In this document: piece after piece, positions 2,052-52,596 of the stretch | Layout of the letters: each line of letters starts with the position of its first letter | Position numbering within the stretch: the first letter of the stretch is position 1 | IMG/VR virus record: IMGVR_UViG_3300034101_001322 | Location: 1-64,000 of that record | Origin: a virus | Length of the DNA: 64,000 nucleotides | Reading direction: 5' to 3' (one strand) | Translations under genes and position numbers: made by a program | The notes under the pieces: generated by a model | Told to the model about the DNA's origin: nothing | What the model saw: the letters and a program-made list of their open reading frames with translations, nothing else | Database searches by the model: none

Positions 2052-2060
2052 TGATATAAT
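2052..2060 (+). promoter_or_regulatory. extended -10 promoter TGATATAAT of a candidate small RNA
   Basis: Perfect extended -10 inside the non-coding stretch. The expected start at about 2067 falls one base before the left arm of a 14-bp hairpin that ends in a T6 tract. There is no gene between promoter and terminator. Confidence 0.6.
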
Positions 2061-2066
2061 CTAAAC

Positions 2067-2127
2067 AGATTAGTCCCTAGGTTGCTCTCTACCCCACCCC
2101 ACTGCTCCTAGGGATTAATCCTTTTTT
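2067..2127 (+). ncRNA. candidate ~60-nt small RNA: one hairpin plus U6 tail
   Basis: The predicted transcript is almost entirely one stem-loop. The left arm 2068-2081 pairs with 2107-2120 over 14 bp (one G-U), leaving a 25-base loop made mostly of pyrimidines with two CCCC runs, followed by CTTTTTT. A canonical extended -10 sits 6 bases before the expected start, and a second promoter for the next gene follows immediately after the T-tract. It could be simply a terminator for the upstream operon, but the dedicated promoter placed right at its foot argues for a short independent RNA. The C-rich exposed loop would suit pairing with G-rich ribosome-binding regions. Confidence 0.5.
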
Positions 2128-14438: not shown

Positions 14439-15149
14439 ATTAAAAATATAATAACTTTTGTAGAACTAAATGAATTATCAAATTATGAACCAGTACCTGC
14501 TAAGACTATAATTCCTGATTGGTATAAAAAATTAGAATCTTACGTTGGTGGTAAAAAAACTTTTAACATAAATAATCAAGATGGGCATCCAACAGCAAAA
14601 AAATGTATGCCATTATTTGATGCAATTACATCAGGATATATCATGTTTTCTCCAGTAGATTACTATTTTAGAATAAATGAGCGTGGAGAGCAAGAATATA
14701 GTTATGCCAACTCTGTAAAAGAGTGGATTCCTATAAACTTGCATAATCCTGCAACGATAGGGGATTATCCTAACTTGGTATCACCAACATATAGAATGGA
14801 TAGTCCGTGGACAATAAAAACTCCAAAAGGATATTCTGTAATGGTTCTTAATCCTTTACATAGAGAAAATTCTGTATTTAGAATATTTGAAGGAATAGTT
14901 GACACAGATAATCATCCAAGTCCACTTAATTTCCCATTTACCCTGCTTGAACCTAATTTTGAAGGTTTGATTCCAGCAGGAACTCCATTTGCTCAAATTA
15001 TTCCCTTTAAAAGAGATAGTTGGAAAATGAAAATTGAAGAACTTGGGAGTCCTTTACAAAAACACTTTGTTAAAGAAAACTATAAGTTGCAGTCATCATT
15101 TTGGAACTTTTATAAAAATAAGATATGGGCTAGAAAAAGTTTTGAATAG
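14439..15149 (+). CDS. DUF6065-like phage protein with probable AUU start
   Basis: 236 residues if read from ATT at 14439 (IKNIITFVELNELSNYEPVP). The phrase FVELN...YEPVPAKTIIPDWYKK is the typical beginning of a conserved phage family found near fibres, so the frame upstream of the first ATG (14607) is clearly coding. From the in-frame TAA at 14418 to 14607 there is no ATG, GTG, TTG or CTG in frame. ATT lies 6 bases behind a G7-TG tract, the only plausible Shine-Dalgarno sequence. Later conserved-looking parts are FSPVDYYF, VMVLNPLHRENSVFRIFEG and GTPFAQIIPFKRDSWKM. Function unknown. A one- or two-base assembly error in the A7G7 tract is the main alternative. Confidence 0.65.
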   Translation: MKNIITFVELNELSNYEPVPAKTIIPDWYKKLESYVGGKKTFNINNQDGHPTAKKCMPLFDAITSGYIMFSPVDYYFRINERGEQEYSYANSVKEWIPINLHNPATIGDYPNLVSPTYRMDSPWTIKTPKGYSVMVLNPLHRENSVFRIFEGIVDTDNHPSPLNFPFTLLEPNFEGLIPAGTPFAQIIPFKRDSWKMKIEELGSPLQKHFVKENYKLQSSFWNFYKNKIWARKSFE

Positions 15150-15898: not shown

Positions 15899-16441
15899 AT
15901 GGCTACTGGTGCAACGACTATTTATGATTTACCATACCCGATACTAACAGATCCTGTCAATGTACACGGAGATATTCAGTCATTAGCAGAACAGATTGAA
16001 CTTGTACTTCCTGGTTTAGGATTACCTTATTTTACATATGAGGTTAAAAATTCTAGCGGGGTAACAATTAATAAGGGTGATCCAGTATATGCAACAGGAT
16101 ACTCAACTAAGACTACAGTTGCAAAGTCTGTTTCTGGAACGTTAGCAACATTTCCAGTTCTTGGTTTAGCACAAACAAATATTTCAAACGGCAGTGATGG
16201 AGTTGTTATTGTTTCTGGTATTTTTGCAGGTACCGCTGATATTCCACTAAACACATCTTCGTATACCGCTGGAAATATACTTTATGTAGGAACCTCTGGA
16301 GGTCTTACTGCAACACAGCCAGCAGGCGGTTCAGGGGCTGTAGGAGTTGTTTTAAGATCAAATGCATCGCTAGGTGTCATAATGGTTGGACAACCAAAAG
16401 GTAACGGAACTTGGGGATCAATGAAAGCAGGTTTGGCATAA
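15899..16441 (+). CDS. tail fibre or virion decoration protein
   Basis: 180 residues. The N-terminus MATGATTIYDLPYPILTDPV and DIQSLAEQIELVLPGLG form a fibre-base segment. The body FTYEVKNSSGVTINKGDPVY, VVIVSGIFAGTADIPL, AGNILYVGTSGGLTAT is a beta domain of the type 'V.N..G.TI.KG.PVY..G' found in shafts of fibres and on capsid-decorating proteins. The start at 15899 is preferred over the in-frame ATG at 15839 because of the promoter. The TAATG overlap couples it to the third RGDT-family gene. Confidence 0.6.
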   Translation: MATGATTIYDLPYPILTDPVNVHGDIQSLAEQIELVLPGLGLPYFTYEVKNSSGVTINKGDPVYATGYSTKTTVAKSVSGTLATFPVLGLAQTNISNGSDGVVIVSGIFAGTADIPLNTSSYTAGNILYVGTSGGLTATQPAGGSGAVGVVLRSNASLGVIMVGQPKGNGTWGSMKAGLA

Positions 16442-16824
16442 TGGCAACATATAGAGGACAAGGCACAGATTCTTTTTCAATTGGATCAGCCCCACCAAAT
16501 GTTCTTTGGACATTAGTTCGTGGAGACACAGCAGCATTTAGAGTTTATGTTACAGATGAAAATAGAGTGCCACTTACAATTAGTGAGTGGACTATCTCTA
16601 TGGATATTGTTAGACCACCAAGTACATTAATAGTTTCACTTAGTCCAGAAGTAACTTTACAAGACGATGACGGTGAATTTACAGTTTCACTATCTTCTGG
16701 AGAATCTGAAGATCTTGAAACAGGAGATATTTTTGATATTCAATTATCTGATGCTACCCGCACATGGACAATTTGCAAGGGTACAATAACAGTAATTGAA
16801 GACGTAACTGCTGCTGAGAGTTAA
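16441..16824 (+). CDS. RGDT-family structural protein, copy 3 (BppU N-terminal-like)
   Basis: 127 residues with WTLVRGDTAAFRVYVTDENR near residue 21 and GTITVIEDVTAAES at the end, the same landmarks as the copies at 2146 and 2651. The middle is more acidic. The ATG overlaps the stop of the preceding gene. It is followed by a 74-residue gene, just as copy 1 is followed by a 34-residue gene. A second anchor unit for a fibre set encoded downstream (17064-20858) is the likely role. Confidence 0.6.
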   Translation: MATYRGQGTDSFSIGSAPPNVLWTLVRGDTAAFRVYVTDENRVPLTISEWTISMDIVRPPSTLIVSLSPEVTLQDDDGEFTVSLSSGESEDLETGDIFDIQLSDATRTWTICKGTITVIEDVTAAES

Positions 16825-51648: not shown

Positions 51649-51663
51649 CATTAAGGGTGGGAA

Positions 51664-51855
51664 ATGGTTTTTTGCAAAAAATGCAAAGGTCGTATGCTTG
51701 TTGATAGACAATATAGCACAACTGAGCATATTGAGATATTCTGTATACTGTGTGGTGCAAGAACATTCTTTCACCCACCATCAGAGAGTGAGCAAGGTAG
51801 ATGGATACTGCTAAGGGAAAGATCCAGAGCGAACAATACAATAACGAGTCTGTAA
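51664..51855 (+). CDS. zinc-ribbon protein
   Basis: 63 residues with two CxxC pairs, CKKC (residues 4-7) and CILC (27-30), spaced as in a zinc ribbon. The remainder is basic (RWILLRERSRANN). Such proteins bind DNA, RNA or proteins during phage development. The initiation region is unusual: GGGTGGG two bases from the ATG, the same element as at 52363. The 3' end overlaps the next gene out of frame by 55 bases. Confidence 0.65.
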   Translation: MVFCKKCKGRMLVDRQYSTTEHIEIFCILCGARTFFHPPSESEQGRWILLRERSRANNTITSL

Positions 51856-52343: not shown

Positions 52344-52362
52344 ACTATGAAATGGGTGGGTA

Positions 52363-52596
52363 ATGGAAAATAGCAATTACGTAGTAACAAACGAACCAAC
52401 AAAGATTAATGTAACACTAGGATATACGCTTAACCTTGGTAACTTTCAATCACTTAGACTCGATCTAGGCGTTGTAGATAGCAAGCGTGATGGAGAAACC
52501 ACAGCAGACGCTTTTGAGCGTGTCTATAAGTTTGTAGAAGACAAACTAACAGAAAAGATTCAAGAAGCACAATCAGAGGCTGCTGAAAAAGAATAA
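52363..52596 (+). CDS. conserved small phage protein, unknown function
   Basis: 77 residues. INVTLGYTLNLGNFQSLRLD and LGVVDSKRDGETTADAFERV, then a charged helix YKFVEDKLTEKIQEAQSEAA. Two or three beta strands followed by a helix, no Cys. The ATG is preceded by GGGTGGG two bases upstream. The stop overlaps the next ATG (TAATG). Encoded just before helicase and primase, so a role in replication is plausible, but there is no direct sign of it. Confidence 0.55.
   Translation: MENSNYVVTNEPTKINVTLGYTLNLGNFQSLRLDLGVVDSKRDGETTADAFERVYKFVEDKLTEKIQEAQSEAAEKE

Follow-up and report, generated by a model that had tools for sequence, protein, structure and literature searches.

A conserved C-rich hairpin in freshwater actinophages: a predicted small RNA gene and its proposed target in the replication operon

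To our knowledge, phage small RNAs that act by base pairing on a conserved target have rarely been documented, and the targets are usually unknown. A bacterial RNA with similar features is the 6C small RNA, which we take to be Rfam family RF01066. In mycobacteria, the 6C RNA is B11, which carries two unstructured loops with cytosine strings; these C-rich loops pair with G-rich ribosome-binding sites and repress, as demonstrated by compensatory mutations in M. abscessus (PMC10470900). Regulatory RNAs encoded by phages, including lambda OOP, P22 sas, and VpdS, have been reviewed, with OOP and sas presented as antisense RNAs of the genes that they control (PMC12197685).

Here, we analyzed a hairpin locus in a 64,000-nucleotide stretch of DNA (hereafter the window), which covers positions 1 to 64,000 of IMG/VR record IMGVR_UViG_3300034101_001322. 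The full record comes from an environmental phage, is 94.5 kb long, and has a GC content of 38.7%. The locus shares with 6C/B11 an actinobacterial setting and, as its proposed mode of action, a C-rich loop facing a G-rich ribosome-binding site. In contrast to 6C/B11 with its two C-rich loops, it is phage-encoded and forms a single hairpin with a single loop; the loop is a mixture of C, A, and U with a specific core, and the evidence points to a phage mRNA as the target. No Rfam family matched, either at the gathering threshold in the window or in a cmscan of positions 1826–2160 up to E = 10; the latter search also gave no match to the 6C model (RF01066). The unit in the window folds as a single hairpin and thus lacks the two C-string loops of 6C. 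The best reading is that the phage RNA would work like 6C/B11 but is a separate RNA, with repression being inferred by analogy. Like OOP, sas, and VpdS, it would be a short phage RNA controlling phage (or host) mRNAs by base pairing; unlike OOP and sas, its gene lies ~50 kb from the proposed target, and only ~6–10 bases would pair. The features of the locus are as follows.

1610–1825, + strand: upstream gene of 71 aa, unknown function; found upstream of the element in 101 of 101 testable relatives, and also in records of cultured Planktophila phages
2052–2060, + strand: extended −10 TGATATAAT, predicted small-RNA promoter, read directly; of the phage's usual promoter type
2067–2127, + strand: small RNA gene, predicted to be ~60 nt, from the fold z-score, covariation, and a cross-class covariance-model match; the 5′ end (2067) is inferred from the −10 spacing
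2068–2081, + strand: left arm of the stem, from folding and from two-sided changes in relatives
2082–2106, + strand: C-rich loop TTGCTCTCTACCCCACCCCACTGCT, 25 nt, from conservation and pairing evidence
2093–2099, + strand: CCCACCC inside the loop, proposed target-pairing stretch, from pairing evidence
2107–2120, + strand: right arm of the stem, from folding
2121–2127, + strand: U-tract, C then T6 (T6 at 2122–2127), completing the intrinsic terminator, read directly; T-rich in relatives, some of them weak
2129–2137, + strand: second extended −10 TGGTATAAT, promoter of the near-leaderless gene at 2146, read directly
2146–2550, + strand: downstream gene of 134 aa with a weak phrog_1084 match, adjoining the RNA gene

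A first-pass annotation had described this site as a perfect extended −10 followed after 6–7 bases by a 14-bp hairpin with a 25-base C-rich loop and T6, with nothing encoded in between and another promoter immediately behind. Each of these elements was confirmed. The gap between the extended −10 and the stem is 7 bases, the stem comprises 14 pairs including one G-U (2068–2081/2107–2120), and the loop contains two inner G-C pairs (2084–2085/2104–2105). No ORF of at least 40 aa is present in 1826–2145, and the second extended −10 stands 8 nt from the ATG at 2146. The predicted folding energy is −23.5 kcal/mol (z = −5.5), with none of 200 shuffled sequences equally low. The hairpin was not listed by a simple terminator scan, because that scan allows loops of only 3–8 nt.

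The RNA gene sits among probable tail genes. The 94.5-kb record contains 22 copies of the TGnTATAAT motif on the coding strand versus 3 on the opposite strand. Most copies besides the one at 2052 lie 6–30 nt upstream of a start codon, an arrangement that often leaves the mRNA nearly leaderless. The 2052 copy is exceptional in that no gene starts behind it before the next promoter. Based on the strand bias and the proximity to start codons, we regard the 2052 site as a typical phage promoter without a gene of its own. Extended −10 promoters with strong strand bias and many near-leaderless mRNAs were seen in both the window and L302. Two more extended −10 sites (G000:68205 and G000:73426, equivalent to L302:4205 and L302:9426) are located 55–76 nt from the next start codon and could possibly represent leader RNAs or other small RNAs. 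Elsewhere in L302, a proteasome-subunit-like protein (L302:7655–8179) adjoins a subtilase-family protease (L302:8380–9261). The window phage also carries three paralogous phrog_1084-type genes, at 2146–2550, 2651–2995, and 16411–16824.

The host is likely actinobacterial, probably Nanopelagicales, an inference drawn from three observations. The window phage encodes WhiB, and whiB is treated as a key sign of actinophages (PMC10202952). Its portal protein is ~44% identical to those of Streptomyces phages such as Comrade (Stanwilliamsviridae), which are distant relatives. Records OX376640 and OX376641 contain counterparts of the upstream 71-aa protein at ~55% identity, and OX376641 carries the title LanE43-AprF5, a phage that was grown in culture on Ca. 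Planktophila. The Ca. Planktophila phages E7 and F5, with genomes of 39 kb, have this 71-aa protein and whiB in common with the window phage (PMC10202952). The class-B model of the RNA described below, the only model used here, found no match in the Comrade genome or the F5 record.

We searched viral contigs for relatives of the two flanking genes and for DNA patterns, requiring a strong hairpin and a following promoter and setting no condition on an upstream −10. This search identified at least 113 distinct elements in related phage contigs. Among those listed, all 113 combined a strong hairpin, whose loop has a C-rich core, with a promoter behind it, all 113 had a −10 box before the stem, and a relative of the 134-aa gene lay directly downstream in every case. 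The modal distance from the −10 to the first stem base is 6 nt (43 cases); the transcript is therefore predicted to start at or beside the stem, in agreement with the earlier proposal that the RNA consists of the hairpin alone. Thirteen of 14 long contigs carry one copy of the element. A separate DNA search of a phage collection returned no match. A pattern scan of bacterial genomes gave six matches in unrelated taxa, none with a class-B model match, and these were taken as chance.

The loops fall into two classes: class A, UUGCUCUCUACCCACCCCCACUGC with two inner G-C pairs, which includes the window hairpin, and class B, GUCUCUCAUACCCACC plus shorter variants. The classes track the phylogeny of the downstream protein, and a lone class-A label within class B (L178) is a pattern artefact. 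In gap-free alignments, the class-B stems showed two-sided changes in 14 of 18 pairs, with 92.6% of cells paired versus 77.3% after shuffling, and the class-A stems showed such changes in 9 of 16 pairs (89.2% versus 73.8%). Slid pairings were far worse than the true stem pairing in the alignments of both classes. The loop is better conserved than the stem and is near-invariant within each class. Furthermore, a covariance model built from class B alone recovered the class-A window hairpin (E = 2e-4) and nothing else in the window genome, where the unit is thus single-copy. The covariance check suggested in the first-pass annotation therefore came out positive in both classes, and the case that would have refuted its proposal, a stem kept without its promoter, does not occur among the 113 relatives listed. 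Given the conserved 113-member cassette, the covarying stems, and the lack of an Rfam match, that proposal of a stand-alone small-RNA gene is supported by the conserved −10, stem covariation, and loop conservation, all of it sequence evidence. The hairpin thus looks like a real stand-alone small-RNA gene, its transcription being inferred.

The proposed target lies in a DNA-replication operon ~50 kb from the RNA gene.

52354–52365, + strand: proposed target ribosome-binding site and start GGGTGGGTAATG, from loop complementarity, the ortholog scan, and further pairs
52363–52596, + strand: proposed target gene, 77 aa, phrog_5189, unknown function, adjoining the DnaB helicase and primase genes

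This gene is positioned just upstream of those encoding DnaB helicase, primase, a single-strand binding protein, RecA/UvsX, and a DNA polymerase III alpha-like protein, the last assigned from sequence without a family search. A fairly confident structure model of the 77-aa protein shows a beta-hairpin and a helix, and it matched nothing in the PDB. In an initial scan of the window genome, the gene at 52363 was among the better loop pairings, and the ribosome-binding sites of its orthologs seemed to follow the loop class, as noticed by eye before the unbiased ortholog-wide scan. That scan itself treated all genes alike. It covered 14 genomes bearing the small RNA, including the window phage, with genes placed in 130 ortholog groups; each start region was scored against the loop of its own phage, with 150 composition-matched shuffled loops as the control. 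Of the 130 groups, the 77-aa gene took the top rank (Fisher P = 9e-6), and the next-best P value, 0.023, is what chance predicts for 130 tests. When loops of the other class were swapped in, the gene fell to rank 101 of 130 (P = 0.97). In a hold-out set of 13 further phages with both loci, the signal was recovered (Fisher P = 2e-6).

The complementarity also varies in step between loop and target. Over 24 distinct loop–target pairs, none of 20,000 permutations reached the mean of the matched pairing, and matched pairs also exceeded permuted ones in each class taken alone (P = 0.017 for class A, P = 0.032 for class B). Among class-B pairs, the C/U base of the loop motif C/U-AUACCC predicts G/A in the target motif GGGTAT-G/A for 12 of 13 pairs (8/1/0/4, P = 0.007), as in CAUACCC with GGGTATG and UAUACCC with GGGTATA; one additional case, behind an inserted gene, agrees. 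The longest matches reach 10 bp (class-A G001, class-B G014, G035, and G065). In the two testable phages that lack the RNA, the ribosome-binding site of the 77-aa gene is a plain GGAGG. GGGTAT or GGGTGG sites occur upstream of only 0–6 of the 114–164 genes per phage and are therefore too rare for the general use of G-rich Shine-Dalgarno sites to account for the match. With its own promoter and terminator and no coding capacity, the locus has the properties expected of a trans-acting base-pairing small RNA, judged from sequence and conservation alone; conserved complementarity to a distant mRNA is also seen, although weakly for several class-A phages and the window. As a separate observation, a possible second target is the gene at 51664, which encodes a zinc-ribbon-like protein of 63 aa. 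It lies two genes upstream of the 77-aa gene and, within 51654–51666, has a GGGTGGG ribosome-binding site complementary to the loop.

Several points weaken the target evidence. The window's own pair, CCCACCC with GGGTGGG, is limited to 7 contiguous bp and does not reach significance by itself (p = 0.22 in the ortholog-wide scan and 0.08 in the later pair analysis), and the predicted mRNA structure leaves its target site only 31% unpaired. For the class-A phages G009, G010, G011, G044, and G066, the true loop scores no higher than its shuffled versions. Two class-B pairs, G012 and G050, show only a weak fit, and in G002 the covarying position holds the wrong base. Because the phages are related, the loop–target pairs are not independent, and the P values are too small by an unknown factor. 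In a separate check, GGTGGGTA was not enriched overall above its reversed pattern in the phage genomes.

A real small RNA whose C-rich loop acts mainly on host RNAs or a host protein, with the 77-aa match secondary or a by-product, is unlikely but is the alternative that survives best. C-rich loops suit many G-rich sites, and the candidates include G-rich ribosome-binding sites, ribosomal RNA, Rho, and cold-shock proteins; the class-B sequence UACCCACC also matches 8–10 nt of a 23S rRNA segment. However, this match is broken in the window loop, and the rRNA matches are no longer than those of shuffled loops for most classes, while the phage-gene signal is specific and disappears with swapped loops. 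We rejected rRNA as a target, since for most loop classes neither the 16S nor the 23S matches surpassed those of shuffled loops.

The hairpin might instead be a terminator and insulator that separates the upstream genes from the strong promoter driving the 134-aa gene, without any independently acting RNA, and we consider this improbable. Its U-tract lies at the end, it precedes the promoter and the 134-aa gene in all 113 relatives listed, and such strict synteny also fits a cis role. Yet every one of these relatives places a −10 box at transcript-start distance, and the loop predicts the binding site of one gene and is better conserved than the stem, a constraint that a terminator would not require. 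A simple intrinsic terminator, having no dedicated promoter and an unconstrained loop, is not what is observed. In addition, four relatives forming one clade (L068, L077, L095, and L096) lack the whole cassette between the 71-aa and 134-aa genes but retain the 134-aa gene's own promoter. L054 carries an inserted gene exactly between the hairpin and the promoter of the 134-aa gene, yet the hairpin persists together with its own promoter. The small-RNA unit thus behaves, in these sequence comparisons, as a self-contained cassette and not as part of the downstream promoter. By eye, the L054 insert (L054:3213–4315) resembles the DUF6065-like gene at window position 14607. Finally, recognition of the hairpin as single-stranded or cruciform DNA by a replication, packaging, or recombination protein would suit a stem conserved as structure, a loop conserved as sequence, and a single copy at a fixed place, but has very little to recommend it, since a −10 box at transcript-start distance and a T-rich tract always flank the hairpin on the same strand and four relatives live without it.

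We therefore prefer, with somewhat better than even confidence, a ~60-nt trans-acting antisense small RNA of freshwater actinophages whose loop pairs with the ribosome-binding site of the 77-aa gene and lowers its expression. This interpretation rests on comparison of the conserved cassette, the covarying structure, and the covarying loop and target; transcription, pairing in the cell, repression, and its timing are inferred. In the proposed mechanism, the RNA would be transcribed from its own extended −10 and end at its own stem, acting as an intrinsic terminator, so that the product would be only the hairpin with its C-rich loop. The loop would pair through ~6–10 bases with the ribosome-binding site of the 77-aa gene (phrog_5189), keeping ribosomes off the mRNA and lowering expression of the gene and perhaps of its operon neighbors. 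Repression might be timed, for example, to the switch from replication to late functions, which is plausible but unproven.

The hairpin RNA family is absent from the Rfam catalogue. Whether it is a new, widespread phage family in which a hairpin RNA from among the tail genes provides an internal antisense switch for the replication operon, and in which the loop co-evolves with the ribosome-binding site in both classes, appears to us an evenly balanced question. As loop and target differ between the two classes, a natural swap experiment is already available. The analysis thus offers one RNA family, present in many environmental actinophages, with a specific and testable target backed by co-evolution, and it suggests that phages of abundant freshwater Actinobacteria may use 6C-like control through C-rich loops on their own replication genes.
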